Shown: positions 2,296-54,262 of the stretch, piece by piece
How the letters are laid out: the number at the start of each line of letters is the position of its first letter
Position numbering within the stretch: position 1 is the first letter of the stretch
Source: Robiginitomaculum sp.
GTDB taxonomy: Bacteria > Pseudomonadota > Alphaproteobacteria > Caulobacterales > Maricaulaceae
Reading direction: 5' to 3'
Assembly (NCBI GenBank): GCA_016763315.1
Contig: JAESTZ010000075.1
Coordinates: forward strand, 1 to 54,262
DNA: 54,262 nt
Made by a program: the position numbers and the translations under genes
Notes under the pieces: model-generated
Database searches by the model: none
What the model was told of the DNA's origin: nothing
What the model saw: the letters and a program-made list of their open reading frames with translations, nothing else

Positions 2296-2951
2296 TGAGC
2301 CAGCTTAAACTTATAATCTTTCGCGATTTGTTGCTGGCGACCCGCTCCGGTGGTAATTGGGCGCAAGGAAGCATTTTCTTTATATTATTCATTATGTTAG
2401 CGGCGTTTGCGCTTGGCCCTGATCAAGCCGAACGAGGTTTTATTGCCCCGGCTCTGGTCTGGCTTGCGGTCACATTTGCCAGTCAATTATCTTTAAGCCA
2501 GTTGTTTAGTGAAGACTTAAATGACGGAAGTCTAGAGTGCTGGATTACAGACAACCGATCGCTTTCAATATATGTTATCGGCAAAGTATTCTCGCACTGG
2601 ATAAGTAATTTTGCACCAATACTTCTGCTTAGCCCTTTTGCAGCCGTTATGCTGGGTGCAGATATATCAAGCGCGCCAATTCTGATAGTCTCCCTTTTGG
2701 TTGGCGGGCCGGCAATGGTTCTTATAGGAGGCATGGCCTCAGCACTAACCGCAAATTTACGCGGCGCAGGACTATTAATTGTATTGATATCCGGGCCGCT
2801 ATTGGCATCACCACTGATATTTGGGGTTGGCGCAGTACAGGCCGGAACTATTAATAGCGTTGCGATGAAATTACTTGGCGCTATTTCATTGTTTTCATTG
2901 GTATTAGGTCCATTAATCTCGAGATTAGCCCTAAAAATCCACTTGGAATAA
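2292..2951 (+). CDS. ccmB: Heme exporter membrane protein CcmB
   Basis: A 219-residue inner-membrane protein with about six hydrophobic helices, the membrane partner of CcmA. Family features include the SGGNWAQ N-terminal segment, the QLFSEDLNDGSLE cytoplasmic segment after helix 2 and the late GAVQAG stretch. The start overlaps the ccmA stop, and ccmC follows 17 bases later, so the three form one operon. Confidence 0.92.
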   Translation: MMSQLKLIIFRDLLLATRSGGNWAQGSIFFILFIMLAAFALGPDQAERGFIAPALVWLAVTFASQLSLSQLFSEDLNDGSLECWITDNRSLSIYVIGKVFSHWISNFAPILLLSPFAAVMLGADISSAPILIVSLLVGGPAMVLIGGMASALTANLRGAGLLIVLISGPLLASPLIFGVGAVQAGTINSVAMKLLGAISLFSLVLGPLISRLALKIHLE

Positions 2952-2968
2952 TCGATAAGGAAATACAA

Positions 2969-3733
2969 ATGCTGTCATACTTTGCCAATCCAGTCAGGTT
3001 TCAAGCCTTAAGTAAATGGATTTCACCAATATTGGGAATAGGCGCAATTATACTGATTATTCCGTCATGGATAATGGCATTATTTATAGTGCCTGCTGAT
3101 TATCAACAAGGTGATACATTTCGGATAATGTATGTTCACGTTCCGGCGGTTTTTGCCGCCTCCGGCGCTTATGCATTTTTGGCAATAGCCAGTTTTTTCA
3201 GCTTTGTTTGGCGACATCCATTGGCAGATACCGCCGCTAGAGTTGCAGCTCCCATCGGTGCAGCATTTACCTTTTTAGGGCTGTTCACCGGAGCCTTATG
3301 GGGCAAGCCAATGTGGGGCGCCTATTGGGTATGGGATGCACGGTTAACCTCTACATTGGTAATGCTATTTTTGTTTTTAGGTTATATGGCAATCAGAGCG
3401 GCAATCCGCGATGAAAACTCCAGTGCCAGAATCGGCGCGATAGCTGCCATGGCCGGAGCAATCAACTTACCAATAGTCAAATATTCTGTTGAGTGGTGGT
3501 CGAGCTTACATCAATCCGCTTCGATTAGTCTTAGCGGTTCAGAAATTGATAACTCCATGTCGACAACCCTGTTTGTTGGCATAATCGGATATTTTTGCCT
3601 GTTTGGCTGGCTGGTGATCAACAACATGCTTAGCGAACTTGATGCTCGCAAAGCCAGAGCATTGGTAATTCGCTCATCAGACCAGCGACCATCTACCGCC
3701 AGCAAACAAATGACGGAGAACCCTGATGCCTGA
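2969..3733 (+). CDS. ccmC: Heme transporter CcmC
   Basis: A 254-residue inner-membrane protein that binds heme and loads it on CcmE. It carries the tryptophan-rich WWD-type motif (WGKPMWGAYWVWDARLTS) on the periplasmic side, flanking histidines in YVHVPAV and VEWWSSLHQ, and about six membrane helices. A basic cytoplasmic tail follows. ccmD starts eight bases before its stop codon. Confidence 0.94.
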   Translation: MLSYFANPVRFQALSKWISPILGIGAIILIIPSWIMALFIVPADYQQGDTFRIMYVHVPAVFAASGAYAFLAIASFFSFVWRHPLADTAARVAAPIGAAFTFLGLFTGALWGKPMWGAYWVWDARLTSTLVMLFLFLGYMAIRAAIRDENSSARIGAIAAMAGAINLPIVKYSVEWWSSLHQSASISLSGSEIDNSMSTTLFVGIIGYFCLFGWLVINNMLSELDARKARALVIRSSDQRPSTASKQMTENPDA

Positions 3734-3890
3734 ATTATTGGATTTTGGTAAAAACAGCATCTTCATCTGGACCTGTTATGGCATAACTATTCTTGTTCTT
3801 GGCTCTTTGGTTATAACAAGTTTACGCAAGAAAAAAATGACAAAAAGAGCATTAACCACAGTTCTAGATGAACAAAACAAAACAAAATAG
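3726..3890 (+). CDS. ccmD: Heme exporter small subunit CcmD
   Basis: A 54-residue protein starting with ATG at 3726, overlapping the end of ccmC in another frame. It has the typical CcmD layout: a short polar N terminus, one membrane helix (about residues 14-34) with an aromatic-YG motif at its entry (IWTCYGITILVLG), and a lysine-rich cytoplasmic tail (LRKKKMTKR). CcmD links CcmC, CcmE and CcmA in the complex. Position directly after ccmC supports the call strongly. No ccmI or ccmG follows. Confidence 0.87.
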   Translation: MPELLDFGKNSIFIWTCYGITILVLGSLVITSLRKKKMTKRALTTVLDEQNKTK

Positions 3891-4104
3891 ACAAACGTAT
3901 TATTTTAATCGGCCAGAATCAAAAACAGCACCATAATTGTTATTATTCAGCCACCTCGTTTTACCAGTTTTAGTTATCGACACATTTGCTTAACAACCTT
4001 GGAAAATTTTCGATTTAACGATCCACAAATCAACCATAACCCCCTTTTTTTCATCCTGTGACGATCCGTCGCATTCAAATTTAAGTAATAGCAAAATCGC
4101 CAGT

Positions 4105-4119
4105 TGCAAATGAGTTGCA
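4105..4119. promoter_or_regulatory. Putative iron-responsive (Fur/Mur-like) operator before feoAB
   Basis: A perfect inverted repeat TGCAA-ATGAG-TTGCA lies 18 bases upstream of the feoA ATG. The TGCAA/TTGCA arms resemble iron boxes described for alphaproteobacterial Fur/Mur proteins, and feoAB is a classic iron-regulated operon. The assignment is by resemblance and position only. Confidence 0.5.
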
Positions 4120-4137
4120 TTCGTGATTTATGCACGT

Positions 4138-4386
4138 ATGACCAACGAACCCACCAATTTAGATCAATTAGCGCAACACAAACCAGCACAAATCACTGGC
4201 TTTGAGCAAGGCAAAAAACCACTAGTCGAAAAGTTGCGAGAAATTGGTTTTGCCGAAGGCGACGAGGTGGAAATTTTGCATCGCGGTTTAATTGGCGGCT
4301 CCCCCTTGTGTGTACGCCTTAACAGTTCGATTATCGCACTTCGAAAAATAGAAGCTTCACAAATACAAATCGTTTTGCACCCATGA
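4138..4386 (+). CDS. feoA: Ferrous iron transport protein FeoA
   Basis: A small cytoplasmic SH3-like protein of 82 residues from the ATG at 4138; a GTG at 4123 would add five residues but lies almost against the operator-like dyad. Family features are the central VEKLREIGFAEGDEVEILHRG segment and the GGSPLCVRLNSSIIALRKIEA segment. FeoA assists FeoB. Its stop overlaps the feoB start by four bases. Confidence 0.92.
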   Translation: MTNEPTNLDQLAQHKPAQITGFEQGKKPLVEKLREIGFAEGDEVEILHRGLIGGSPLCVRLNSSIIALRKIEASQIQIVLHP

Positions 4387-6206
4387 ACATTAAGAGTATT
4401 GCACTGGTTGGTGCACCAAACACCGGTAAAACCACTTTATTTAACGCGTTAACCGGCGGTAGGGCTAAAACCGGAAACTACCCCGGCGTTACCGTGGAAA
4501 AACGAAATGGCATATATACCTCTAACAGTGGCAAACAATATGAGCTAATTGATTTACCGGGAATTTACGGCCTTTCCGGTCGCTCAACCGATGAAAAAGT
4601 TGCCTTGCAACATTTGCGCGGCGACATAAAAACTGCGCAAAAACCCGACATGATGTTGGCTATTCTTGATGCTGCGCGGTTACAAACCCATTTACATTCT
4701 ATCTTGCAATTCAAGCAGCTCGGCCTGCCGATGATACTGGTCTTGAACATGATGGACATGGCCGACAGAGACGGTTTGAAAATTGATCTTGAAAAACTCG
4801 AGCAATTACTTGGCTTTCCAGTTGTCGGCATTACCGCTTCGCGCAAAATGGGAAGAAAAGCATTAGAGGATAATTGGGACGAGTTACTGCAAAAAGCAAA
4901 ACTTCCAACTACTGCAGAAACCACCAAATTATCAGAACTACAACGCCAAGCCCGTAAAATAGCCAAAAACACCATTCAACAAACCTCAACCGGACGCGAT
5001 CTCACAAGGCTAATTGACCGCTTTACCTTGCACCCAATATTAGGTCCGATCCTGTTGCTGGCGATAATGTTCTTTATATTTCAAGCAGTTTACACATGGT
5101 CGGGTCTGCCGATGAGCTGGATCGAAGCCGGCGTTGGCTGGTTGCAGACAATGGCGTATGGAATTAAGATCGAATGGTTGGCTAGCCTGCTTGGTGACGG
5201 CATCATTGCTGGCGTTGGCTCAATATTGGTGTTTTTACCGCAAATCCTCATTTTATTCGGGTTTATCATAATACTAGAAGCCAGCGGCTATATGGCAAGA
5301 TCAGCATTTTTGGTTGACGGTTTAATGAGCAAAATAGGCTTAAACGGCCAAGCGTTAATCCCATTATTGTCCAGTTTTGCTTGCGCCATTCCCGGAATAA
5401 TGGCGGCGCGCAGTATCAAGAGCGAACGCGACCGATTAACCACAATCATGATTGCGCCATTGATGACTTGCTCGGCACGTTTGCCGGTTTATGCACTTAT
5501 AATCGGCGCATTTATCCCGAAAACCTCGGTCGGGCTTTTTAATCTTCCGGGGCTGGTTTTATTTACACTTTACATTGCCGGTATAATCTTTGCCATTTTA
5601 GTGGCTTTTATCTTACGCAAAACCGCAACCAAAGGCCCGCCACAACACTTATTGCTTGAATTACCGGGTTATATGATTCCGAAACTAATGGATTTTATCA
5701 TTGCAATATTATCCCGTGCTTGGGCATTTATTCGCAAAGCTGGCACGATTATTTTCGCTACATCGGTGGTTCTTTGGTTTTTAACCTCATTTCCCAAAGG
5801 CGGCTCCGGTATTCGTGATAGTTTCGCCGGAACACTTGGTTCATGGATTGAACCAATATTCAGACCAATCGGATTTTCACTAGAAACTGTGATCGCTCTG
5901 GTTCCAGGCATGGCCGCCAGAGAAGTGGTGGTTGCCGCTCTGGGTACTGTTTATGCGGTCAAGGGTAGCGAAGCAGAAATAGAAGCTGGCCTTGCCAGTG
6001 TTTTACAAAACGCATGGTCATTACCTTCGGCGCTTTCATTTTTAGCTTGGTATGTGTTTGCGCCACAGTGTTTTGCCACCATCGCCACGGTTCGAAGAGA
6101 AACCAATTCACGTAAATGGACAACTTTTATGGTGACGTACTTGTTTTTACTGGCATGGATCGCAGCATTTATTACGTTTCAGCTTTCAAGCCTATTGCTT
6201 GGTTAG
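4383..6206 (+). CDS. feoB: Ferrous iron transporter FeoB
   Basis: A 607-residue inner-membrane Fe(II) transporter. The N-terminal G domain shows G1 GAPNTGKT (residues 10-17), G3 DLPGIYGL and G4 LNMMD. The membrane part follows from about residue 215 with two gate regions: one holds the conserved cysteine motif [13 protein letters not shown], and [19 protein letters not shown] and [15 protein letters not shown] are further conserved stretches. It is shorter than the E. coli protein (773 residues), mainly in the linker and C terminus, as in many alphaproteobacteria. No feoC follows; the 3' end overlaps the convergent deoB gene by 35 bases. Confidence 0.95.
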
Positions 6207-7419
6207 CAATTGTTCCGGTGGGAAAACCTTTTAATCCCAACCATGCAGCACCGGTTGCCCCAATATCGGCAAATGTCTTGCGATGGCCAAGATCACCAGC
6301 AATTACATGTGCGCCATAAGCAATAAATGGCACAAATTCACGAGTATGGTCGGATCCGGGAAAAGTCGGATCACAACCATGGTCGGCGGTTAAAATCAAC
6401 AGATCACCCTCTTGCAAAGCAGCTGTTAGTTCCGGCAACCGCCGGTCAAAATACTCTAATGCTGTCGCATAACCGGTAACATCGCGACGATGGCCATACA
6501 GCATATCAAAATCAACAAAATTAGTGAAAATAAATGCTCCGTCTTTAGCGGTTTTCAACTCGGACAATGTGGCATCCATCAAACCATCAAGACCATAGGC
6601 GTTGACCTTTCGATCGATGCCACGACCAGCAAAAATATCCGATATTTTGCCGACGGCGATCATCTCGCCATTGCTTTGCGATACCTGATCAAGCAAGGTT
6701 TCGCTAACCGGCGGAACAGCTATATCCCGGCGGTTATTTGTTCGGGCAAAATCATTGGAATTATTGCCGTCAAATGGCCTGGCAATCACCCGACCAATAT
6801 TGTAAGGGTCAACTAATTTTCTGGCTATTGCACACAGATCATACAGCCGCTCAAGGCCAAATGATTGCTCATGAGCGGCAATCTGAAACACCGAATCCGC
6901 TGAAGTATAAACAATAGGCTTCCCTGATTTTATGTGCTGCTCACCAAGTTCTGTAATGATATCAGTACCCGAAGCATGACAGTTTCCAAGGAAACCGGAC
7001 ACACCGGATAAAACTTTAAGTTCTTCCAGTAACTCATTGGGAAATGTATTTTTTTTCTCCCTAAAGTAACCCCATTCAAACAATACCGGCGCACCCATAG
7101 CCTCCCAATGGCCGCTAGGTGTGTCCTTACCCTTGCTTTGCTCCTCGCAATAGCCATAACCACCGATAATTTCTCTATCTGTCCGCAAGCCCGGAGCATA
7201 GCGCCCGGTGGCTCCGGCATTGGCCGCACCTAAACCCAATGCCAACAGGTTTGGTATTTGCAGAAGCCCAGAACGGCCGCCAGCTTGATCGCACTTACCG
7301 GCGGCGCAGTGATCAGCAATATGTCCTAAAGTATCACCACCGGCATCGCCGAAACTGTCGGCATCAGGAGCCGCGCCAATACCCAATGAATCCAGTTCGC
7401 AAACAATCAGTCGTTTCAT
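6172..7419 (-). CDS. deoB: Phosphopentomutase DeoB
   Basis: A 415-residue cytosolic enzyme that interconverts (deoxy)ribose-1-phosphate and the 5-phosphate, linking the nucleoside phosphorylases to DeoC. Alkaline-phosphatase-fold metal motifs are visible: [19 protein letters not shown] at the N terminus with GGDTLGHI, and [19 protein letters not shown] near the C terminus. It is the last gene of the cdd-punA-deoC-ALDH-deoA-deoB operon and its first base coincides with the last base of deoA. Its tail overlaps feoB on the other strand. Confidence 0.95.
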
Positions 7420-8741
7420 TACGTAGGAACCCCGACACGGCTAATAACCGCTTTTGACAGTTCCGGTTTATCGCCAATCAAAATTGCTTGCTCGATACTT
7501 GTTTTGGCGATTTGTGCCGCTTCTTCTGAGGCAGCATGAATGGTACACAATTCATCACCAATAAATAATTCGTCGCCTATTGACGGTAGACCACTAAGAC
7601 CAACACTAAAATCAAGCTCATCACTGGCCACGCGCCGGCCACCGCCAAGTTCAACCACGCAAAGGCCAATGTCGCGGGTCGCTATCTTGCTGACCCAACC
7701 GTCGGCTTGGACTTTTACAACGCGGCGGACTTTGGCGGCAGGTAAATAATTATCCATATTTTGCGTAAAATCAACGGCTCCGCCCAATTCAGTAACCATT
7801 TTGGCGAAAACCTCCAAAGCACTGCCGTCTTGTAGCTTTGCGGTTACTTTTTGCAGGGCTTGCGTTGAGTTTTCACACAAACCTCCAAGCACCAACATTT
7901 CCGCAGCCAAAGACAATGTTACTTGTTCAAGCCTGGCATCACGATGAGTACCGCTTAGAAACTCGACCGCATTTCTTACTTCCAATGAATTACCGGCGGC
8001 GCTGGCCAATGGTTGATCCATATCGGTGATCAAGGCACTGGTACGAAGACCACAAGCATTGGCGGTTTCCACCAAATTTTGCGCAAGGTCTTTTGCCATG
8101 CCCATCGAAGCAGCAAATGCGCCAGAGCCTATTTTTACGTCCAGCACCAAACCACCAAGACCGGCGCTTAGTTTCTTTGACAAGATACTGGCAACAATTA
8201 AAGGAATTGATTCAACAGTAGCCGTTATATCTCTGGTCGCATACATCCGCCGATCCGCCGGAGCCAGATCATCGGTTTGGCCGATGATCGCACAACCGGT
8301 ATTGGCAATGACATGGCGTAATTTGTCCATTTCCGGGGTTGAAACATAACCGGGGATCGAATCCAGTTTATCCAAAGTGCCACCAGTATGACCAAGACCA
8401 CGTCCGGAAATCATCGGCACAAAACCACCACACGCCGCCACAATCGGAGCCAGCATTAGTGACACATTATCACCAACTCCACCGGTAGAATGTTTGTCTA
8501 GAACCGGGCCTTTATCGCTTAACTCTGACCAGTCAAGAACAGTCCCCGAATTGGCCATAGCCTTGGTCAAAGCGATGAATTCTTCGCGCTGCATACCATT
8601 TAAGAACACAGCCATTGCCAAAGCAGCGATCTGCCCTTCGGATACGGAATTATTGGTAACTCCAGTAATAAATTCTTCGATTTGTGATTGCGATAACACT
8701 CCGCCATCACGTTTGATGCGAATAATTTCTTGCACTAACAT
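7419..8741 (-). CDS. deoA: Thymidine phosphorylase DeoA
   Basis: A 440-residue pyrimidine-nucleoside phosphorylase that splits thymidine (and deoxyuridine) into base and deoxyribose-1-phosphate. The family signature is clear: [19 protein letters not shown] for phosphate binding, then [20 protein letters not shown]. An N-terminal helical domain (IIRIKRDGG, then the [10 protein letters not shown] segment) precedes the alpha/beta domain. The gene touches deoB downstream and starts five bases after the aldehyde dehydrogenase gene. Confidence 0.95.
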
Positions 8742-8745
8742 TTGC

Positions 8746-11121
8746 TTAGTCTCCGTAGGGAAGCCAGATATTCTTGACTTGCGTGCATTCGCGCAAGAAC
8801 TGTCTTCCCTCGCCAGTCACTGATGAAACCCAATCCCGCGAGTTGCCATTATTAACCCAAGTACGCTTGAGATTACCAATCGACAAAACTTCTGCATCTT
8901 TGCTGCCTTGCTTTGAGCCAAAATACCACAAACCATCAATTTGATCATGCTCTGCAAGAACTTTTGCCAGAGCTTCGCGCTCACCGGTAATGATATTTAT
9001 TGCACCAGCAGGAACATCGGAAGATTCCAATAAACTATAAAGATCAGTACCCAATAATGGATAACGCATTGATGGTATTAGTACAGAACAATTACCCATC
9101 GCCATTACCGGCGCAAACAATGAGACCATCGACAATAAAGGCATTTCATCAGGACAAATAATCCCCATAACGCCTAATGGCTCATTTACCGCCAGAGCCA
9201 CATTTCTTGATGGCGGAGTATGCACAAGTCCATCAAATTTATCAGCCCATGCCGCATTTGCGAACAATCTAGCGATTGATAATTCAACTTCACGGTTTGC
9301 TTGCGCCTTGGTTGCGCCAGTGGATTGCTGTAATCGTGCGGCGAATTCAGCAGCCCTAGCATCAAGGTTTTCCGCCATAAAATATAATATTTGCGCCCGG
9401 TTATAGGCAGTTCTGGCGGCAAAACCTGCGCTTGATTTATACGCGGCTTCTACCGCATTTCTTATGTCTTTGCGATTACCATCACCAACTCGGCCAATCA
9501 TTTGCCCTTGGGCATCGTAAACCGGCAAAGTTCCACCGCCATCAGGTCTTGCTTGTTTGCCGCCAACAAACATTTTTGGTGTCTGGTCAACGCCTGTCTG
9601 GTTTTGCTGTTCTTTTGCCGGTTTTGCAGCAGCAATTAAAGCCGAAGCATCTTTATTCCAGTCTAGTTTCGGTTTCAAATAGGCATACATTCCCTCAATG
9701 CCGCCTTCCCTGCCAAAGCCGCTCTCGCGATAACCGCCAAAACCACAAGCAGCATCAAACATATTGGCCCCATTGACCCAGACAATACCGGCTTTTATTT
9801 GCGTTGCCACTTCCAAAGCACGATTGATATTTTCTGACCAGATACTACAGGCCAAACCAAAACGGGTATTATTAGCCACGACCACGGCATCAGCTAGATT
9901 ACGAAAAGAAGTCACAGTTAAAACCGGCCCGAATATTTCCTCTCTGGCAACAAAGTTTGACGGCTCGACATCGCACAACAAAGTCGGCGGATAAAAACAA
10001 CCGTCCGCTGGAATATCAATATCCGGTTGCCAGCAAGTGGCGCCATCAGCCACACCCTTGGCGACCATTGATTTGATACGGTTTAACTGTACAGGATCAG
10101 CCACCGCGCCCATATCAATGGCTTTATCCAAAGGGTCACCAAGACGAAACTTACCCAAACGTAATTTGATTTTGGCAATTAGTTTGTCGGCTATGCCTTC
10201 TTCGACCAGCAAACGCGAGCCAGCGCAACAAACCTCACCCTGATTAAACCAGATGCCATCAACAAGTCCCTCAACGGCACTATCCAGATCTGCATCTTCA
10301 AACACGATAAACGGAGATTTACCGCCTAATTCCAACGTTAGTTTTTTACCAGTTCCGGCAGTTTGTTCACGCAACAACCTGCCAACCGGCGTTGAGCCAG
10401 TAAAGGCGATTTTCACCACATCAGGATGATTAACAATCAAACTACCGGTTTCGCCTTTGCCGGTTATAATATTGACCACACCAGCCGGCACACCGGCCTC
10501 AATGCAAAGTTCAGCAAAATACAGCGCACTGAGCGAAGTATATTCCGCTGGCTTTAGCACCACGCAATTACCCGCAGCCAATGCCGGAGCGATCTTCCAT
10601 GACAGCATCAAAAACGGGAAATTCCAAGGTATGATCTGCCCGACAACGCCCAAGGACTGTTGGTCGGATAGCTCGGTTTTTAATAATTGCGCCCAACCAG
10701 CATGATAATAAAAATGCCTTGCCGCCAATGGTATATCGGCATCTCTGGTTTCGCGTATCGGCTTGCCATTATCCAGTGTTTCAAGCACGGCAATAAACCG
10801 TGAGTTTTTCTGAATTAACCTCGCCAAAGCATATAATACCCGCGCCCTTTTATGCGGTGCCAGTTTTGACCAGTCAGCATACGCTGTATTAGCAGCCTTT
10901 ACCGCGGCATTGACCTGGGTTGAGCCAGCAGTAGAAATTTGCGCCAACACATCGCCATTGGCCGGGTTAGTGCTGTTGAAATAATCACCATTCTTTACCC
11001 ATTTCCCGCCAATAAAATGTCCAAAGCCGGTTTTCTTGGTTTGTAGCCAATCACGCACTTTTGCCGCATCTTCCGGCGCTGGCCCGTATTCCATATTCTC
11101 AAAAATCTCTGACACGCTCAT
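8746..11121 (-). CDS. ALDH16-type aldehyde dehydrogenase, active domain plus truncated second domain
   Basis: A 791-residue protein. Residues 1 to about 490 form a complete NAD-dependent aldehyde dehydrogenase with VLKPAEYTS for cofactor binding, the general base E264 in LELGGKSP, and the catalytic cysteine C298 in FNQGEVCCAGSR. Residues about 520-791 form a second, shorter dehydrogenase-like domain: IICPDEMP takes the place of the usual PWNFP segment, the cofactor lysine is replaced (SVLIPSM), and no catalytic cysteine motif is present. This matches the bacterial ALDH16 architecture. Lying between deoC and deoA, it most likely oxidises the acetaldehyde released by DeoC to acetate; the substrate is inferred from context. 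Confidence 0.9.
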   Translation of the reverse strand: MSVSEIFENMEYGPAPEDAAKVRDWLQTKKTGFGHFIGGKWVKNGDYFNSTNPANGDVLAQISTAGSTQVNAAVKAANTAYADWSKLAPHKRARVLYALARLIQKNSRFIAVLETLDNGKPIRETRDADIPLAARHFYYHAGWAQLLKTELSDQQSLGVVGQIIPWNFPFLMLSWKIAPALAAGNCVVLKPAEYTSLSALYFAELCIEAGVPAGVVNIITGKGETGSLIVNHPDVVKIAFTGSTPVGRLLREQTAGTGKKLTLELGGKSPFIVFEDADLDSAVEGLVDGIWFNQGEVCCAGSRLLVEEGIADKLIAKIKLRLGKFRLGDPLDKAIDMGAVADPVQLNRIKSMVAKGVADGATCWQPDIDIPADGCFYPPTLLCDVEPSNFVAREEIFGPVLTVTSFRNLADAVVVANNTRFGLACSIWSENINRALEVATQIKAGIVWVNGANMFDAACGFGGYRESGFGREGGIEGMYAYLKPKLDWNKDASALIAAAKPAKEQQNQTGVDQTPKMFVGGKQARPDGGGTLPVYDAQGQMIGRVGDGNRKDIRNAVEAAYKSSAGFAARTAYNRAQILYFMAENLDARAAEFAARLQQSTGATKAQANREVELSIARLFANAAWADKFDGLVHTPPSRNVALAVNEPLGVMGIICPDEMPLLSMVSLFAPVMAMGNCSVLIPSMRYPLLGTDLYSLLESSDVPAGAINIITGEREALAKVLAEHDQIDGLWYFGSKQGSKDAEVLSIGNLKRTWVNNGNSRDWVSSVTGEGRQFLRECTQVKNIWLPYGD

Positions 11122-11125
11122 TTTA

Positions 11126-12103
11126 TTATCCTATCGGGTGCCGGTTAGCGGCTGAATATCGTCCTGTTGCCTGATGCTCTAGTTGTCGTTCAATATCACC
11201 AAGCAAGCTGGACGCACCAAAACGAAAGAACTTGGGGTCAAGCCAGTCATTGCCCAGTTCTTCTTTGATCAACATAAGATAGACCAAAGCCAATTTCGCC
11301 GAGCTAACCCCACCAGCAGGCTTAAAACCAACCATATAGCCGGTGCGTTGGTGATATTCGCGGATCATTCGCATCATTATCAAGCTAACCGGCAAAGTGG
11401 CGTTCACGCCGTCCATTCCGGTTGAGGTCTTGATAAAATCTGCTCCGGCCATCATACAAACCATCGAGGCTTTCGCAACCTTGGTAATGCTACCCAATTG
11501 TCCCGTAGCCAAAATCGCTTTGACATGAGCATCGTCGCAGGCCTCTCTAAAAGCGCACATTTCATCGTATAATGCCTGCCAATTAGCGGTTAAAACATGT
11601 CGCCTGGAAATTACAATATCAATTTCTTGGGCGCCGGCAGCAACGCTTTCTTTAATTTCCGCCAAACGTAGATGAAATGGTGATAATCCAGCAGGAAAGC
11701 CTGTTGAAACTGCCGCAACCGGAATGTTTGATCCACGCAAAGCCTCTACTGCCACCTCAACCATGTCATGATAAACACAAATTGCACCGGTAGTGAGCTG
11801 CATATCTGGTACGCCTAAGCTCTCTAGGATATCACGCCGTACCGGATTGCGGGCTTTAGCACATAGCCTTCGCACCCTGCCCGGGGTGTCATCACCACTA
11901 AGCGTAGTTAAATCAATTACAGAAACCGCCTTTAACAACCAAGCAATTTGCCATTGTTTCTTGACCGAACGTCTTGCTCCATGACTGGCAATGCGTCGTT
12001 CAACTGCTGATAAGTTTATCCGTATTTCATCGACCCATGATGGATCAAAAGTCATTTTGGAATTACGAGCCTGTTGATCAAGACGGTGTATTTCAGCAAC
12101 CAT
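11126..12103 (-). CDS. deoC: Deoxyribose-phosphate aldolase DeoC
   Basis: A 325-residue class I aldolase that cleaves 2-deoxyribose-5-phosphate to glyceraldehyde-3-phosphate and acetaldehyde. The Schiff-base lysine lies in AGADFIKTSTGMDG and the second conserved lysine in VGFKPAGGVSS; the VKAILATGQLG strand is the usual second active-site segment. It is longer than the E. coli protein by an N-terminal extension of about 50 residues, a length seen in the longer DeoC group. The aldehyde dehydrogenase gene starts four bases downstream. Confidence 0.95.
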   Translation of the reverse strand: MVAEIHRLDQQARNSKMTFDPSWVDEIRINLSAVERRIASHGARRSVKKQWQIAWLLKAVSVIDLTTLSGDDTPGRVRRLCAKARNPVRRDILESLGVPDMQLTTGAICVYHDMVEVAVEALRGSNIPVAAVSTGFPAGLSPFHLRLAEIKESVAAGAQEIDIVISRRHVLTANWQALYDEMCAFREACDDAHVKAILATGQLGSITKVAKASMVCMMAGADFIKTSTGMDGVNATLPVSLIMMRMIREYHQRTGYMVGFKPAGGVSSAKLALVYLMLIKEELGNDWLDPKFFRFGASSLLGDIERQLEHQATGRYSAANRHPIG

Positions 12104-12157
12104 TTTTATAAGTCCTTGGTGTAAGGCAGCATATTATATCTGTTTGTTTTGCTTTTG

Positions 12158-12982
12158 TCAGCCAGCTAACGGGTTGTCATTAAAATCACGCAATAATGCA
12201 TCAAATAATTTCAAGATATTTTCCGAGCCCAGAGCAGCTTCGCGCATTGTGTGTTCGTGGCTTAATTCTTCATCGCGCATGCCAGCGGCATAATTTGTCA
12301 CCAATGACACCGCGCCAACTCTAAAGCCTTGCTTTCTAGCCAAAATGACTTCGGGAACTGTCGACATTCCCACCAGATCGCCGCCCAGTAAACGTATCAT
12401 GTTAATTTCTGCCGGAGTTTCAAAACTTGGCCCAGAATACCAAACATAAACACCCTCATGCAATTCAGCACCGGAAGTTTTAGCAGCTTCTCTTATTCGA
12501 TCGGCAATTTCATGATCATAGGCCTTACCAAGGTCGATAAATTGTGGCGGACGATGATCACCAATAAGCGGGTTTAGACCAGAAAAATTGATATGATCAG
12601 TGATAAGCGAGGCACTGGCTGGCGGCACATTTTCATGCACACTGCCAGCGGCATTAGTCAGCAATAAAACCCGACAGCCAATATGCCATAACACCTCTAA
12701 CGGCACCATCATTGCCGCCGGATTACCATCTTCGTAATAATGAATCCTTCCGGCCATCAAAGCCACATCAAGGCCGTTTATCTGCCCCAACACCAGATCA
12801 CCGGAATGAGAAGCAACTGTTGATACTGGAAATCCAGGAATATCAGCGTAAGGAATAACTATCTTGTCCGTAACTATATCGACAAGGTTGCCTAGGCCAG
12901 AGCCTAGAACTATTGCCAATCGTTGTTTTTTCTCGACCCTGCGTTCAATATATTCGACGGCTTTACTGATGACTGTTCTCAT
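12158..12982 (-). CDS. punA: Purine-nucleoside phosphorylase (trimeric type)
   Basis: A 274-residue enzyme that splits purine (deoxy)nucleosides with phosphate. Motifs of the low-molecular-mass trimeric family are visible: LAIVLGSGLGNL at the N terminus, ASHSGDL, the GRIHYYEDG segment, LLTNAAGSVH, and the base-binding VWYSGPSFETPAEINMIRLLGGDLVGMSTVPE. The ATG at 12982 was chosen over a TTG at 13003, because it lies 17 bases past the cdd stop and gives the usual MRTVISKAVEYI start. Second gene of the nucleoside operon. Confidence 0.93.
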   Translation of the reverse strand: MRTVISKAVEYIERRVEKKQRLAIVLGSGLGNLVDIVTDKIVIPYADIPGFPVSTVASHSGDLVLGQINGLDVALMAGRIHYYEDGNPAAMMVPLEVLWHIGCRVLLLTNAAGSVHENVPPASASLITDHINFSGLNPLIGDHRPPQFIDLGKAYDHEIADRIREAAKTSGAELHEGVYVWYSGPSFETPAEINMIRLLGGDLVGMSTVPEVILARKQGFRVGAVSLVTNYAAGMRDEELSHEHTMREAALGSENILKLFDALLRDFNDNPLAG

Positions 12983-46875: not shown

Positions 46876-48318
46876 TTATTTCTTAGGCTTTGTAAGCAGA
46901 AAATATACCGCAACCAACGTCAGTAGAATACCAATTCCGGCCAAACCGGGACCCTTTACCATATCGCTTAAAGTAACGATAAGGCCTGCTTTTTGAGTTC
47001 CAAAAACACCAGCAGTAATTAAAATCAACCCGGCAATTCCCATTAAAACAAATATAATGGAATTTCGTTTTTCCAGCACTTCAAACGGTTGCTCATTTTG
47101 AACCGGCAACTCGTTTGTTAAATTTTCAGGCACTAGCTCATCATAATCGGCAAATGGCGGAATATCCTCTTGCGGTTGGCTTACCTGATCCAGAACTAAC
47201 ACATTTTCCAGATTATCTTCTTCCAGAGCAATGTTTTCATCAGACAGATCATCACTGGTAATTTCTTCTGTAGTTTCTTCTGTAGTTTCTTCTGCAACGG
47301 CCTCCACTTCCGGCATTGGCGGAATATCATCAGCGGAAGGTTCAGTTTTTATTTCGTCAGCAGCCGGCAAATCAGAACTTTGCGGTTCATGAATTTCCTT
47401 GGCTAAATCTTCGGTAGCTGTAGCGGGTACATTAATGGCTATTTGCGCTATTCTTCCGGAAATTTGCTCGGCAAGTTCACCAACCGGATCATTTTTCTTT
47501 TCAGGTTGGAATACATCACCAATGGGAACCAGCTCATCAGTACCAGTAGCCTTTAATTCATCTTCTTCTAACTTGCCGGTTGATTGTGGATCATTTGCGT
47601 TAGCTACCTCTTCTTGGTCATCATCAGAAAAATGATAATCATATTCTTTTTCTTCATTAGAAGCAGTAAAAACAGGAATTACTTCTTCCATGGCGCTATT
47701 TTCGGTCAGCAAAGAACCAAGTGCCGCAGAATTTGACAAATCAATCGCAATTTCTTCTACAACTTCTTCGGCTGCTTGTTGTTTTGCATCTTCGGTGATT
47801 TTGCATTCCAACTCTGAATCCTTCCTGGTATGCAAAATCGAGCTAGGTGCTAATACAACCCCCTCTTCCACATTCAGGAACAATGCTTTTTCAGCTGTCC
47901 GGCGACGCACCAGCGCATCAATTATAATTTCTCGCCCACCAAGGCTTGCTTTGCGCCAGGCATCAAACGCAGATGCAGCACTTAATAATTTTCCCTCATT
48001 AATGAAACGCACAACTTCGGAATTAGTGAAATTATCAATCCCAATATTAAAAGCCAAAGACAATAAAGCGTCCATTTGCGATTGTGAAACCGGAGCAAAA
48101 ATACAACTGGAAACTTTCACAGCCAAATTGCCCATATCCCAGATCAATAAATCTTCTGCGTCCGATTCTGATACAACTGCGCCCTTTTTAGCTGAAACAG
48201 TATGACCATAACCAATCACCCACACCCCATTAGGCAGAAGTGTTGCTAAAGCCCGAAATCCTTCAAAAGCCTTTACCAGCTTCAGTCCTGCATCGGAAAT
48301 TATAGTGTTTTTTGTCAT
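46876..48318 (-). CDS. spmX: SpmX-like polarity protein (degenerate GH24 muramidase, two C-terminal helices)
   Basis: A 480-residue membrane protein. Residues 1-150 are a T4-lysozyme-type (GH24) domain: the catalytic glutamate is kept (E19 in KAFEGF), but the positions of the other two residues of the catalytic triad are leucine (L28, for Asp) and valine (V34, for Thr). Residues about 165-417 are a long acidic, low-complexity linker with Glu/Thr repeats. Two membrane helices follow at about 420-440 and 457-476. This is the layout of SpmX, a pole organiser derived from a phage lysozyme that recruits the DivJ kinase in Caulobacter and places stalks in relatives. The phage-type lytic role is thus unlikely. 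Confidence 0.85.
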   Translation of the reverse strand: MTKNTIISDAGLKLVKAFEGFRALATLLPNGVWVIGYGHTVSAKKGAVVSESDAEDLLIWDMGNLAVKVSSCIFAPVSQSQMDALLSLAFNIGIDNFTNSEVVRFINEGKLLSAASAFDAWRKASLGGREIIIDALVRRRTAEKALFLNVEEGVVLAPSSILHTRKDSELECKITEDAKQQAAEEVVEEIAIDLSNSAALGSLLTENSAMEEVIPVFTASNEEKEYDYHFSDDDQEEVANANDPQSTGKLEEDELKATGTDELVPIGDVFQPEKKNDPVGELAEQISGRIAQIAINVPATATEDLAKEIHEPQSSDLPAADEIKTEPSADDIPPMPEVEAVAEETTEETTEEITSDDLSDENIALEEDNLENVLVLDQVSQPQEDIPPFADYDELVPENLTNELPVQNEQPFEVLEKRNSIIFVLMGIAGLILITAGVFGTQKAGLIVTLSDMVKGPGLAGIGILLTLVAVYFLLTKPKK

Positions 48319-49321: not shown

Positions 49322-49334
49322 TTTTAAAAACTCC

Positions 49335-50741
49335 TCAACTAACAAGAACTAATGCTGCCAATCCTAAAAACACAAAAAAACCAACAATATCAGTTACTGT
49401 TGTAACAAATACACTCGAAGCCACTGCAGGGTCTGCTCCAAGGCGTTTCAATCCAAGCGGCACCAAAATTCCGGCAAAACCAGCAACCAAATGATTTATT
49501 ACCATAGCAGAAGCAAGAATTAACGCCAATGGTAACGACTTGAACCATACAAATGTAACCAAGCCCATGATAATGGCAAAGATAAGGCCATGCACCAGCC
49601 CGGCAACCATTTCGCGAACAATTATCCTGCCGGCATTAGCTTTGGTGATTTCACGCAATGCCAACGCCCTTACCGCCACTGTAAGTCCCTGAGTAGCTGC
49701 ATTTCCGCCCATTGAAGCAACGATAGGCATCAGTACTGCCAAAGCAATGATTTTCTCCATTGAGGCGTCGAAAATAGAAATAACCATAGAGGTCAAAACA
49801 GCCGTAGCCAGATTTACTATCAGCCATGGAGCGCGACTTAGAACCACATCTTTGACTGTATCGCCTAAGCCAGCCTCGTTGACACCGGCCAAAGACAATA
49901 AGTCTTCAGTATGTTCGTCATGCATTACCTCAACCATATCATCTATGGTTATCATGCCGACCAAACGACCGCTTTGATCGGTAACCGGAGCAGAAGGAAG
50001 GTCATATTTTTCAAACATATAGGCGGCATCCTCTTTATCGGTTTGTTGTGTTACGGCAATTTGCACCGGCGACATTAATTCACTAAGCGGCGTGTTGCTT
50101 TTTGCTCGTAATAAAACCGGCAGAGCAACCAAACCGACAACATGATAAGACGGGTCAACAACATAAACTTCGTAAAACGTATCCGGCATCGTAGTATCAT
50201 CAGACTGGCGTATATTGTTTATCGCCTGCTCGACATTAAAAAAGGCCGGAACAGCAACGAATTCACGTTGCATCAATCGCCCGACGCTGTCTGGCTCAAA
50301 GGCTAAAGATGTTTCAAGGGCTTGGCGTTCTTTTGGATTTACCGACTTTAGAACCTCATCACGAAATTCAGCCTCCAGTTCCTCGACCACCTGTATAGCA
50401 TCATCTGATTCCAACGCCCCAATGGCATCGGCAACTGTCTTGGCATCAAGAATTTCAACAATTTTTTCCAATACCGGATCTGACAATTCAGCCAGAATTT
50501 CACCAGTAAAAACATCTGGTGCGAAACTGGCCAACTGACGTAACTGGTCATTGGATAATTGTTCTATAACATCGGAAGCATCGGCGGCGTGCAAACTGGC
50601 TAGAGCAATCTTTGCTGCTTGGGGATCATTATTTGATAAAGAACGACAGAGATCTTCCAGCGCAACTGAATCAATTTCAGTGCCACTGGTCTGATCAATA
50701 TCAGTTTCTTGCTTTATAATGTCTTTCATCATCTGAACCAT
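49335..50741 (-). CDS. mgtE: Magnesium transporter MgtE
   Basis: A 468-residue homodimeric Mg(II) channel. The N-terminal alpha-helical sensor domain (residues about 30-150, superhelical repeats such as LASFAPDVFTGEILAEL) is followed by a CBS pair (about 155-285, with LMSPVQIAVTQQTDKEDAA and APVTDQSGRLVGMITIDDMVEVMHDEH), and five membrane helices with the pore segment MPIVASMGGNAATQGLTVAVRALA. The Kelch gene follows closely. Confidence 0.96.
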   Translation of the reverse strand: MVQMMKDIIKQETDIDQTSGTEIDSVALEDLCRSLSNNDPQAAKIALASLHAADASDVIEQLSNDQLRQLASFAPDVFTGEILAELSDPVLEKIVEILDAKTVADAIGALESDDAIQVVEELEAEFRDEVLKSVNPKERQALETSLAFEPDSVGRLMQREFVAVPAFFNVEQAINNIRQSDDTTMPDTFYEVYVVDPSYHVVGLVALPVLLRAKSNTPLSELMSPVQIAVTQQTDKEDAAYMFEKYDLPSAPVTDQSGRLVGMITIDDMVEVMHDEHTEDLLSLAGVNEAGLGDTVKDVVLSRAPWLIVNLATAVLTSMVISIFDASMEKIIALAVLMPIVASMGGNAATQGLTVAVRALALREITKANAGRIIVREMVAGLVHGLIFAIIMGLVTFVWFKSLPLALILASAMVINHLVAGFAGILVPLGLKRLGADPAVASSVFVTTVTDIVGFFVFLGLAALVLVS

Positions 50742-50816
50742 TTTCTTAAGCCAGAGACATGAATGTCAACACGGCCTAGAATCATGATCATAAACTACAT
50801 AGTCAGATGCAGGTGA

Positions 50817-51518
50817 TTAACTTTGCGTAGAATCAGTCTTGTTTTGCTGATTATTGGTTTTGATTATTTTATATCCTACATAGATCAAAAATAGGCCAAT
50901 GAGTTCAGTTACATACAGCACTTCTACATGACCCATACGGGTGAATGTTCCGCCAATACCGGGCAATAAAGCTCCAATAGCAATAAACACATTCCCCTTA
51001 AACCGGGCTTGATGATCGGATAAAGCATAATACTTCAAAGCTGAATAAATTGCTCCGCCAACCAAGAAAATCATTGCATAAATATTGATCGGTATGGAAA
51101 ATAATCTAATCCACTGCCACTCGAACACCCGACCAGTTAACTTATCTTCAAACCCGATGGGAAGAGCTATAGGCGAGAGCATTACGCAAACTGCCGCAAT
51201 AACAATAGTCGATACAATCAATATAGTTGTAGCATGAGCAAATTTTCGGTTCATCAACAAATAAACCGAACCTTGCGCCAATGGAAAACCGCCAAGCAAG
51301 GCTCCGACAATATACCAGAATTTGGTGTTTAACTCACTCCAGCCAAATAACACATTGACACTTTCGGTCAATGTTCCCAGGCCAAAAGCAATCACACCAA
51401 TAGTCCACCACATCAAATAAGTGGTTTTACTTCTTCGGTAATGCAGTAAAATCTCGCGAGCGAAAAACACCGCCCCGATTGTGGTCAAAATAGGTATATA
51501 TTCAACAAGATTGGACAT
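50817..51518 (-). CDS. Seven-helix membrane protein of unknown function
   Basis: Not recognised. A 233-residue protein from the ATG at 51518 (an earlier in-frame start at 51536 adds six residues) with about seven hydrophobic helices: 10-22, 34-53, 66-86, 93-115, 136-158, 178-198 and 203-222. Between helices run short polar loops such as HYRRSKTTY; the C terminus is polar (KTNNQQNKTDSTQS). Charged residues within helices are few, so it is not an obvious transporter. It lies between mgtE and the R-M island, on the backbone side of the left repeat. Confidence 0.65.
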   Translation of the reverse strand: MSNLVEYIPILTTIGAVFFAREILLHYRRSKTTYLMWWTIGVIAFGLGTLTESVNVLFGWSELNTKFWYIVGALLGGFPLAQGSVYLLMNRKFAHATTILIVSTIVIAAVCVMLSPIALPIGFEDKLTGRVFEWQWIRLFSIPINIYAMIFLVGGAIYSALKYYALSDHQARFKGNVFIAIGALLPGIGGTFTRMGHVEVLYVTELIGLFLIYVGYKIIKTNNQQNKTDSTQS

Positions 51519-51684
51519 AGCAAAACTCACGAGCAATATAATTTGTGCTGGTTATGACACTAAACCAGTTTAGGAGCCAGCCAAAAAAACACAAACAGAA
51601 TCCAAGGTGATGTTCGGTATTTATACGAGGCAATAATAAAAAACCGTCACAAGGCTGCTGTTAGGCAGGGTTGAAACCTAGTAA

Positions 51685-51711
51685 AAATGGTGGGCGATGA
51701 GAGGCTCGAAC
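51685..51711. repeat. Left attachment repeat (displaced tRNA-Val 3' end)
   Basis: 27 bases identical to 54098-54124, including CCA, the acceptor arm and most of the T arm of the tRNA. Beyond the terminal GAAC the two copies diverge at once. Confidence 0.85.
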
Positions 51712-51865
51712 ACGCGTTTGAAGGTTTTGAGGACAAGAAAGTAGACCTTAAAGAATAACGATTTGATTAGTTAAACGTCGCTTCTAGAAATATGGGCACG
51801 ACAGAGATTGAATCTAGCGCTTTATCTTCAATCTTATTGACATTGAAACTGAATCCCTAGATGAT

Positions 51866-51891
51866 GACTTTACGTACCAATCAAAGTAAAG
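51866..51891 (+). promoter_or_regulatory. Putative controller-protein operator before the methyltransferase
   Basis: GACTTTACGTA (51866-51876) also occurs before the controller gene. Here it forms a dyad with a downstream GTAAAG (CTTTAC-N12-GTAAAG) that reaches the AAAGGA Shine-Dalgarno at 51888-51893, so a bound protein would repress the methyltransferase. Confidence 0.5.
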
Positions 51892-51903
51892 GATTCCGTT
51901 TAG

Positions 51904-52797
51904 ATGTCGCTACAAGAACTTAAAGAAAAACTAGGAATTCCATACTACGAGGATGAAGATATTCTGATTTACTCTGGAGATTGTTTGCATTTGCTAGACA
52001 AGGTTGACCCTGCATCAATACCTCTAACAGTAACATCTCCTCCCTATAATATAGGTAAGGAATATGAAAAAATATTAAAGACAGATGACTATGTAACTTG
52101 GTCTTCCGAGTGGATTAGTAAAATCCATCGAATTACGTCAGAGAACGGGGCATTTTGGCTAAATTTGGGATATATTCCTCTCGATGGAAAAGCTAAAGCA
52201 ATACCGCTTCCATACCTCATATGGCAGCATGTTCCATTTTTTCTGATTCAAGAAGTAATTTGGAATTATGCCGCTGGTGTCGCGGGGCGTTTGTTTTTTT
52301 CCCCAAGAAATGAAAAATTTCTTTGGTATGTGAAAGACTCCGAAAACTATACATTTAACTTGGATGATGTTCGAGATCCGAACGTCAAGTACCCAAATCA
52401 AAAGAAAAACGGAAAGTTAAAGTGCAATCCACTTGGCAAGAACCCAACTGATGTCTGGCAAATTGCAAAGGTAACCTCAGGTAAGAATCGTTCTTCTAAA
52501 GAACGAACTGCACATCCTGCACAATTCCCAATTGAATTAGTAAAGCGAATTATTCTGGCATCCAGCAACACAGGAGATATTGTATTAGATCCCTTTTTGG
52601 GATCAGGTTCTACTTTGGAAGCGGCCATCAGAACAGGAAGAGAAGCCGTCGGAATCGATATAGAGCCTCAATATCTAGAAATAGCCATTGATCGCATCAA
52701 AAAAGTCAGAGAACAGATTATTTTGGAAAAAAGCCAAAAAAGCCTATTTGATGAATTAAGTCCTCGGGAAAATGATTATAAGCTTCAAGCGGGCTAA
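51904..52797 (+). CDS. DNA (cytosine-N4)-type methyltransferase of a type II R-M system
   Basis: A 297-residue beta-class enzyme (catalytic motif before the AdoMet motif). Motif IV is TSPPYN at residues 44-49, with the serine typical of N4-cytosine enzymes; motif I is DPFLGSGST at 229-237, near the C terminus. AAAGGA precedes the ATG by ten bases. The partner endonuclease is of ScaI type, so the likely target is AGTACT with N4-methylcytosine; that is inferred from the family. Its 3' end overlaps the convergent endonuclease gene by 42 bases. Confidence 0.9.
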   Translation: MSLQELKEKLGIPYYEDEDILIYSGDCLHLLDKVDPASIPLTVTSPPYNIGKEYEKILKTDDYVTWSSEWISKIHRITSENGAFWLNLGYIPLDGKAKAIPLPYLIWQHVPFFLIQEVIWNYAAGVAGRLFFSPRNEKFLWYVKDSENYTFNLDDVRDPNVKYPNQKKNGKLKCNPLGKNPTDVWQIAKVTSGKNRSSKERTAHPAQFPIELVKRIILASSNTGDIVLDPFLGSGSTLEAAIRTGREAVGIDIEPQYLEIAIDRIKKVREQIILEKSQKSLFDELSPRENDYKLQAG

Positions 52798-53352
52798 TGC
52801 AGCCCCAATAGACGCTTGCTGTCCAGTGGACTTTGCTTGCCCTTTCCAATCATCATCGTCTATCCACCCAAACCGGATTTTCTTAATCTCATTTGATTTG
52901 TCATCTTCTTTTGGCAACTTGTAGTTTATTACTAAATAGTAGCCAGAACGATGTTTACTTCTATTGGCTGACCGGTGGCCTGTGCTCCTATTGCCGTAAA
53001 GACCTGTATTGCTGGATGACGTTTTAATCTCGAATGAGAAATAATTATCATCTTTCCGAACAATGTCTTTTTCAGTTTTTGTCTCTCCACCTCGCCAATT
53101 TGAACAGATATTGTGCAGTCGAACAGCAATAAGCTTTTCTAAAATGACGCCAGTTGCCTGCGCGGGTAGAAAAATATCGGAACCAATTTTGATACTATCA
53201 TCTCCGAAACTCGATGTATAAATGTCATCCCACGCATCATGAACAACTTTTACGATTAAATCGTTATCTAGGGGAAAATCGTCTACGAGTTTTTTGGTGA
53301 TACTTAGCCATTCAGACTCATCGCAATCCACATATGGTGAAGTTATCATCAC
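52756..53352 (-). CDS. ScaI-family type II restriction endonuclease
   Basis: A 198-residue PD-(D/E)XK nuclease. The catalytic residues appear as D96 in EKDIVRK and E108-I-K110 in FSFEIKTSSSNTG. Family-specific stretches are ITSPYVDCDESEWL at the start, the GNRSTGHRS segment, KHRSGYYLVINY, and IRFGWIDDDDWKGQAKSTGQQASIG near the end. This pattern is that of ScaI relatives (recognition AGTACT). It starts within the last codons of the controller gene (four-base overlap), and so depends on it. Confidence 0.85.
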   Translation of the reverse strand: MMITSPYVDCDESEWLSITKKLVDDFPLDNDLIVKVVHDAWDDIYTSSFGDDSIKIGSDIFLPAQATGVILEKLIAVRLHNICSNWRGGETKTEKDIVRKDDNYFSFEIKTSSSNTGLYGNRSTGHRSANRSKHRSGYYLVINYKLPKEDDKSNEIKKIRFGWIDDDDWKGQAKSTGQQASIGAALARLKLIIIFPRT

Positions 53353-53579
53353 TTTACCCCCTCCAATAATTTTTCAGGGGGGACATCAAGCGCACGTGCA
53401 ATACGTACGATGTTGATTAAACTAATATTACGTTCGCCACGTTCAACACCGCCAATATAGGTCCGGTCTAACTCACACGCCAAAGCAAGGCCTTCTTGCG
53501 ATAAGCAGAGCTTATTTCTAAATTCACGCAAACGAGAACCAAAAGCCAACTTGATATTTGATAAACTATCCGAATCCAT
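53349..53579 (-). CDS. Controller (C) protein of the R-M system
   Basis: A 76-residue XRE-type helix-turn-helix protein: RLREFRNKLCLSQEGLALACELDRTYIGGVERGERNISLINIVRIARALDVPPEKLL. This is the pattern of C proteins, which delay endonuclease expression until methylation is complete. The gene precedes and overlaps the endonuclease gene. Its own promoter region has a matching operator, so it should regulate itself. Confidence 0.88.
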   Translation of the reverse strand: MDSDSLSNIKLAFGSRLREFRNKLCLSQEGLALACELDRTYIGGVERGERNISLINIVRIARALDVPPEKLLEGVK

Positions 53580-53608
53580 CTATCCATTTGATCTGATAAG
53601 AGGACAAT

Positions 53609-53629
53609 AAGTCCACGGACTTTACGTAT
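53609..53629 (-). promoter_or_regulatory. Putative C-box before the controller/endonuclease operon
   Basis: The perfect dyad AAGTCC-AC-GGACTT (53609-53622) runs into GACTTTACGTA (53618-53628), the 11-mer that also lies before the methyltransferase. Its start is 30 bases upstream of the controller ATG. A second loose dyad (GGAC/GTCC) lies on its gene-proximal side. Confidence 0.6.
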
Positions 53630-54097
53630 CTTTTATTGGTGATTTTGTCGCAAATTTTGGTATATTTGGTATCTATACACCTCTACGTAGACGATTTATA
53701 GATTATCAAAAATAAAGGGGAAAAGTTTGCCAACGGCTTAAGCAAACAGCTAGGGGATGCAACGCGATAATTGGTAAAACCTCCCCCAAACACCTGAATC
53801 GATGAACCGACCAACAGGTACCAAGAGCAAGTCAACAAAGTTTCATTTTGTGTCAGTGGGTAACCACCCTTTCGGTAGATTGGCGGGAGAATTGAGCCAT
53901 TCAAAGTGCGATTTGATAAGTTGGTCAAACACCTGCTTGTGTTTCCTGCAACCCTTTGAAGTTTCTAGTTTTTAAGTAGACCGACCTTTAAGCAAACCGT
54001 CCGAAGGCTCATATTTTCTACGTACATTTCATGCTGTCAAAACACCATCCTTGAACACAAAAAACTACCTTACCGGCTATTTGCACAAGAAATAGAG
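53630..54097. other. Non-coding part of the island between the C-box and tRNA-Val
   Basis: About 470 bases without a convincing gene. A minus-strand frame of 81 codons spans 53683-53928, but it has no ribosome-binding site and a composition unlike the neighbours (many Ser, Pro, Tyr), so I do not call it. No integrase fragment is recognised in any frame. Confidence 0.6.
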
Positions 54098-54124
54098 AAA
54101 TGGTGGGCGATGAGAGGCTCGAAC
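54098..54124. repeat. Right attachment repeat (3' end of tRNA-Val)
   Basis: The three bases next to the tRNA and its first 24 bases from the 3' end, identical to 51685-51711. Confidence 0.85.
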
Positions 54125-54176
54125 TCCCGACATCCACGGTGTAAACATGGCGCTCTACCAACTGAGCTAATCGCCC
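54101..54176 (-). tRNA. tRNA-Val (anticodon UAC)
   Basis: A 76-base cloverleaf on the minus strand: acceptor GGGCGAT/ATCGCCC, D arm GCTCAGTTGGTAGAGC, anticodon stem CCATG/CGTGG with loop TTTACAC (anticodon TAC), variable loop, T arm GGGAG-TTCGAGC-CTCTC, and encoded CCA. It is the insertion target of the adjacent R-M island and remains intact. Confidence 0.95.
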
Positions 54177-54262
54177 TTACCAGCATTGCTGACAGGAAAA
54201 CGGAATATGACTATTCCGCAGAAAACTGCAAGTTAAAAATGAAAAAGGGCCAGCAAAAGCCA

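Follow-up and report, generated by a model that had tools for sequence, protein, structure and literature searches.

The locus

The window, that is, the whole stretch of DNA analysed here (54,262 bp), is the entire contig C52 of a Robiginitomaculum sp. genome that is 2.52 Mb in size, split into 122 contigs and 92% complete. At the right end of the window lies an intact tRNA-Val(TAC) gene (54101..54176, minus strand), and the contig ends 86 bp past this gene. The 3' end of the tRNA gene is duplicated: an exact 27-bp direct repeat occurs at 51685..51711, distal to the gene, and at 54098..54124, inside and just beyond it, and extension of the match gives 30 of 32 bp. By our own assignment of the repeat limits to tRNA positions, the repeat runs from the T-arm through the CCA and includes the last base of the 5' T-stem, the T-loop, the 3' T-stem, the acceptor strand, the encoded CCA and a TTT. 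The window contains 13 same-strand repeated 20-mers; 8 of these come from the 27-bp repeat, and the others, 5 in number, result from tandem overlaps (22-27 and 47262-47275).

The repeats bracket three genes, in agreement with the first-pass annotation, which had described a methyltransferase, an endonuclease and a controller within about 2.4 kb flanked by a duplicated tRNA-Val end. The DNA methyltransferase M (297 aa; 51904..52797, plus strand) matches PF01555 (N6_N4_Mtase; 1.6e-57) and contains an SPPY motif, which presumably fits N4-cytosine methylation, as of M.ScaI. The restriction endonuclease R (198 aa; 52756..53352, minus strand) is convergent with M, the ends of the two genes overlapping, and matches the RE_ScaI family (PF09569; 8.7e-51) over its length, which bears out the earlier designation of the system as ScaI-like. 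The controller protein C (76 aa; 53349..53579, minus strand), which overlaps the start of R, contains an HTH_3 domain and matches the PADLOC Control_protein model (1.1e-24). The cassette is thus a type II restriction-modification (R-M) system of the ScaI family with a controller, in which all three frames are open. R shares the D..ExK residues (EKD..., FEIK) with its plasmid relative, and on our reading these form the putative catalytic site. The system is predicted to work as an ordinary type II pair, in which M would methylate the host DNA and R would cut unmethylated DNA. AGTACT, the putative recognition sequence, shows no avoidance in the window (5 observed vs 5.5 expected), although 54 kb is too little to be informative; the figure is compatible with recent acquisition as well as with lack of enzyme activity, and settles neither.

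The rest of the insert is non-coding and consists of a left end of 192 bp (51712..51903; 36.5% GC) and a right end of 518 bp (53580..54097), where we recognised neither a gene nor remains of an integrase. Together, these gene-free ends total 710 bp, which we judge to be more than the cassette needs. Both contain candidate control sites. A C-box-like stretch that includes AGTC-CGTG-GACT lies upstream of C (53602..53628, minus strand) and has the GACT consensus given in the relevant part of PMC3758141. The 11-mer GACTTTACGTA occurs at 53618-53628, upstream of C, and again at 51866..51876 (plus strand), upstream of M, where it might be a C half-site at the M promoter; a promoter-like TTGACA-N17-GATGAT precedes it at 51837-51865, a kind of site found 7 times in the stretch vs 5.6 times in shuffles, that is, near chance. 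In the Esp1396I system, as described in PMC3758141, the methyltransferase gene and the endonuclease gene are each preceded by GACT-box operators of the C protein. Judging from these sequence motifs, both promoters of the cassette are probably under C control: C would activate its own expression and that of R late and would probably repress M via the shared GACT operators.

The empty site and the precision of the insertion

The state of the tRNA-Val locus without the insert is preserved in another member of the genus, G009, the genome of which is rated 73% complete. The left flank of the insert (window 49323-51711) aligns by blastn with positions 4-2391 of the G009 locus at 85% identity, the homology stopping at 51711, and the right flank (window 54098-54262) aligns with positions 2365-2529 at 97%. 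The two alignments overlap at positions 2365-2391 of the G009 locus, which are exactly the 27 bp; therefore, the event is a precise, clean insertion of 2,413 bp. On the usual order of events, the copy at 51685..51711 would be the 3' end that the host gene had before the insertion pushed it aside. The host gene flanking the insert on the left (239 aa; 50817..51536, minus strand), which in G009 adjoins tRNA-Val, is present in 3 of the 61 genomes examined, the source genome included. One of its carriers, G027, was considered as a second empty site and rejected, its 3.7-kb locus containing no tRNA.

More broadly within the genus, the 24-bp core (with up to 2 mismatches) is present as a single copy in 16 of the 17 other genomes and is absent from the remaining one, and R was not found in the 98 other relatives examined. 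The single-copy state therefore is probably ancestral, the empty site itself being known from G009 only. In G145, copies of the core lie at two contig ends, which we take to be one locus split by the assembly. No relative was seen that carried the left copy, other than the tRNA end itself, without the R-M genes, the observation that the first-pass annotation had named as one that would speak against an island.

Given the fragmentation of the assembly and the end of the contig so close to the tRNA gene, one could suspect that two contigs were joined artificially through the 27-bp tRNA end. We consider this highly improbable: both outer flanks match one and the same G009 locus, and a foreign cassette with a tRNA end on both sides would in any case be an att-bearing element.

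The T-arm-to-CCA end of a tRNA gene is a classic integrase att site. A different route, insertion by homologous or illegitimate recombination accompanied by a long target duplication, with no site-specific recombinase involved, was put forward for R-M systems by Kobayashi's group, and the target duplications reported in the pertinent part of PMC3031569 are long and variable. For the present locus, a single case, such a route appears improbable because the duplicate coincides with the T-arm-to-CCA end of a tRNA gene, a target seldom hit by chance. There is good evidence for site-specific integration at tRNA-Val, and the recombinase responsible was most likely of the tyrosine type. Among the features typical of genomic islands at tRNA genes, the insert shows bracketing by a duplicated tRNA 3' end and has an empty counterpart in a relative.

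Composition and relatives of the cassette

Another such feature, deviating composition, is seen in the GC content of the island, although not in the GC3 of its genes. The GC content is 39.8%, below that of every other 2,413-bp segment sampled in steps of 200 bp (41.6-49.5%, mean 45.2%), and the GC3 values of the island genes (0.32-0.38) fall inside the range of seven host genes (0.31-0.45). The island is probably foreign DNA. The RE_ScaI family was detected only in the source genome in each of three overlapping sets of 99, 385 and 398 genomes, all of which include it, and in none of 14 control genomes. Pattern scans of genome contigs with a few short R peptides, an insensitive approach, gave 43 and 51 matches, none of which was confirmed as a relative. 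The insert as a whole has no blastn match among phages and matches plasmids with just part of the M gene, in two E. coli plasmids, at 73% identity.

The closest annotated relatives of the system are found on E. coli plasmids, NZ_CP104531.1 (4.5 kb) and NZ_CP063352.1 (7.75 kb). These plasmids carry the three genes in the same order as the island, with C-R convergent to M and the same overlaps, and the encoded proteins are 57% (M, NZ_CP104531.1), 50% (C) and 37-39% (R) identical to those of the island. When the C-R-M genes of the plasmids themselves were used as the query against 5,426 E. coli genomes, only 2 matched, through those same plasmids, and none on the chromosome. In these relatives, the system resides on small plasmids, whereas the version described here is inserted at tRNA-Val. 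A tblastn search with R retrieved 2 plasmid records and no match in the GenBank phage collection.

In a viral collection, an alignment of R matched two contigs. An alignment of M matched 304, and R is also encoded in 6 of the best 80 of these (L083, which is the same contig as L065, and L084-L088). Two pairs of these loci, L084/L087 and L085/L086, show equal identities and bit scores, so that about four are distinct; in L088, the match to R is limited to 113 residues. Genes for phage proteins lie nearby, namely, terminase and portal domains in L085, a capsid protein in L087 and a terminase in L088. Hence the ScaI-like pair is carried as phage cargo in places, and a phage or a phage satellite is a plausible vector for the island; the link to phages owes in part to the use of a viral collection as the search target. 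As a separate observation, one of these viral contigs (L085) also encodes a reverse transcriptase domain (PF00078) at 12187-12843.

Recombinases of the source genome

The feature that would be expected of an autonomous island, an integrase of its own, was not recognised. In line with the first-pass annotation, no recombinase is recognisable within the island: the profile search of the source genome detected no match to PF00589 or PF13356 inside it, and tblastn with the integrases IntA, IntB, IntC and that of G158 produced only chance matches (best E 0.8). On the same results, a decayed integrase in the non-coding ends was considered and rejected.

Elsewhere in the genome, there are five PF00589 matches, two of which we read as XerD and XerC from their sequences and neighbours (the XerC-like gene, at 1459-2402 of locus L008 on contig C85, is divided between two frames). 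The remaining three are on contig C19, to which the PF13356 matches are also restricted. This contig encodes IntA (398 aa) and IntB (453 aa), each with an Arm-DNA-bind_3 domain, as well as a type III R-M system, and contains copies of the 3' end of tRNA-Thr(TGT) at 2190-2239 and 11402-11428. The tRNA-Thr gene itself lies at the end of contig C68, and C19 2190-2309 has a match in G009 beside the tRNA-Thr gene of that genome. Positions 1-11428 of C19 appear to comprise two adjoining tRNA-Thr-linked islands, that with IntB including the type III R-M system and that with IntA including small ORFs of 91 and 108 aa which, by eye, resemble a toxin-antitoxin pair; beyond the tRNA-Thr copies are an oxyR-like and a catalase-like gene, likewise identified by eye. 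The genome also encodes five serine recombinases, two in larger frames of 554 and 346 aa (C63 2861-3301 and C93 603-1025) and three small ones.

The first-pass annotation had called for an integrase that recognises the tRNA-Val end, and integrases of the tRNA type are indeed present, at tRNA-Thr rather than at tRNA-Val. Because IntA and IntB lie beside copies of the tRNA-Thr end, these integrases appear to be tied to this other tRNA, and they were set aside as the source of an integrase acting in trans. The ends of the Thr and Val tRNA genes share a T-arm stretch, and cross-use by IntA and IntB is thus possible.

These observations bear on the idea that the island is a non-autonomous unit, an R-M cassette with att sites that is mobilised in trans and kept by post-segregational killing. 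Such a unit could draw on the tRNA-linked IntA and IntB; one of the tRNA-Thr copies on C19 (11402-11420) starts at the T-arm, like the repeat of the island. The ends of the island are also rich in repeated 8- and 9-mers, the numbers of which were reached in 5 and 7, respectively, of 200 mononucleotide shuffles; several of the repeated words, however, are part of the C operator. Weighing against mobilisation in trans, the best match of the 27-mer on C19 has 6 mismatches, and the island ends match C19 at no better than E 1.6 once the tRNA core itself (E 0.002) is set aside. Moreover, a search of its own genome located the island only once, and RE_ScaI was not detected in the other genomes examined. 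With this balance, we regard mobilisation in trans as rather unlikely.

The tRNA-Val end in other genomes of the order

The core was searched for in 299 genomes of the order, including the source genome, with up to 3 mismatches allowed, so that shorter or more divergent cores are missed. It is present in 114 genomes, with two matches in six of them, and in 5 of the 114, a second same-strand tRNA-Val end lies on the same contig: in the source genome, G158, G1060, G056 and G1097. Between the copies, an integrase was seen in G158 and in none of the other four. The G158 element (2911-12678 of locus L071, on contig C1; 9.7 kb) encodes, besides the integrase, a portal protein, a prohead protease, a capsid protein, an HNH protein and a terminase, and brings to mind capsid-forming satellites.

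In G1060, the 1.3 kb between the copies (2728-4051 of locus L072, on contig C30) contain only small ORFs, the largest of which, of 152 aa and the only one searched, has no Pfam match. The distance from tRNA-Asp to tRNA-Val is 1.37 kb in this genome vs 88 and 749 bp at the two tRNA-Val loci of G1084, each of which is a complete gene on a contig of its own; G1060 thus likely carries an insert at tRNA-Val. An insert of this kind, with no large ORF, is what a unit moved in trans might look like. The cores in G158 and G1060 are about 45 bp long and extend to the anticodon loop; accordingly, we infer that they reflect events separate from that in the window and another class of integrase.

G056 and G1097 each have one tRNA-Val gene and, at a distance of 112-113 bp, a further copy of its 3' end that stands alone; the sequence in between is similar in the two genomes. 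The bare copy of G1097 has 3 mismatches to the query, and the copies end within 1 base of the T-loop limit of the window repeat. Tandem tRNA genes were rejected as an explanation, each stretch having one tRNA-Val gene plus a bare copy, and the bare copy is possibly the scar of an island. The searches of the genus, the order, plasmids and phages revealed no larger element that shares the 27-bp core.

Origin of the island

We read the island as similar to a CIME (cis-mobilizable element): it retains attL and attR, the integrase having been lost or never having been present. Of the two origins that the first-pass annotation had offered, the last remnant of a larger element and a mini-island moved in trans, we lean, with some confidence, towards the former; the latter loses ground given that the resident integrases are at tRNA-Thr. 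The reduced remnant of a larger tRNA-targeting element is favoured because small leftovers in which no integrase is visible occur at this tRNA end, the island turned up only once in the sequences searched, and its long ends hold no genes. There are points on the other side as well. Nothing in the ends can be recognised as a decayed gene for an integrase, a phage protein or conjugation, which makes the case for reduction an argument from absence, and the elements in G158 and G1060, with their longer cores, are not of the parent type. The compactness of the island, its three intact genes, its identical repeats and its clean insertion as 2,413 bp suit a mini-island moved in trans equally well.

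For the favoured remnant, the following sequence of events can be proposed. A larger element, perhaps a prophage or a phage satellite, as suggested by the occurrence of relatives of the R-M pair on phage contigs, would have integrated at the T-loop/3' end of tRNA-Val(TAC). Its recombinase, most likely a tyrosine recombinase, would have restored the tRNA with the element's copy of the 3' end, so that the copy of the host came to lie at 51685-51711. Loss of the integrase and of most other genes would have followed, leaving attL, attR and the R-M cassette as a CIME-like mini-island. The genes left between the att sites encode an R-M system, a type of system known for addiction, and its presence as the only cargo agrees with the view that, when islands decay, cassettes of this kind are the last to go.

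A more speculative possibility, to which we assign a low probability, is a minimal self-keeping hitchhiker that consists of no more than a C-regulated R-M system between att ends of the tRNA type, is moved by the integrases of other elements and is kept by post-segregational killing. If moved in trans, the island would rank among the simplest of the mobile units that use a tRNA site.

Comparison with known elements

In the literature searched, we recognised no arrangement of an integrase-less R-M island at a tRNA gene, and several known kinds of elements share parts of it. CIMEs are defined, in the section of PMC5704250 concerned with them, as elements that have lost integration and transfer genes and retain attL and attR, and the same source mentions type II R-M systems as possible addiction systems of IMEs. 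The island likewise has attL and attR without recognisable integration or transfer genes. CIMEs also descend from an ICE or an IME; the island, distinguished by its size of just 2.4 kb and by a type II R-M system as its sole cargo, can be called CIME-like by its structure.

Among the prophages covered in the pertinent part of PMC2647930, remnants at tRNA genes are as small as 2.6 kb, and there is a precedent for a T-loop inside an att site. The closest in size, prophage 05 at tRNA-Cys of P. fluorescens Pf-5 (2.6 kb), is, like the island, a tiny remnant at a tRNA gene, but is listed there with an integrase (Yes*), whereas the island has no recognisable integrase and an intact R-M system. The tmRNA/tRNA islands described in PMC12595487 resemble the island in the direct repeats at the tmRNA/tRNA end, the phage-defence cargo and the lack of transfer genes; unlike the island, they encode a tyrosine integrase, which was required for excision in the one tested.

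Finally, the CALIN and MITE hitchers discussed in PMC11389934 also consist of cargo between recombination sites without a recombinase of their own, but these sites are attC or IS ends, whereas in the island they are tRNA att sites. Should the tentative notion of a self-keeping hitchhiker be correct, the island would be the equivalent of a MITE or a CALIN at a tRNA site, and the G1060 insert of 1.3 kb might belong to the same group. Set against these systems, the island is an ordinary kind of element in an unusually small form, very small and precisely bounded, with an empty site as the control.
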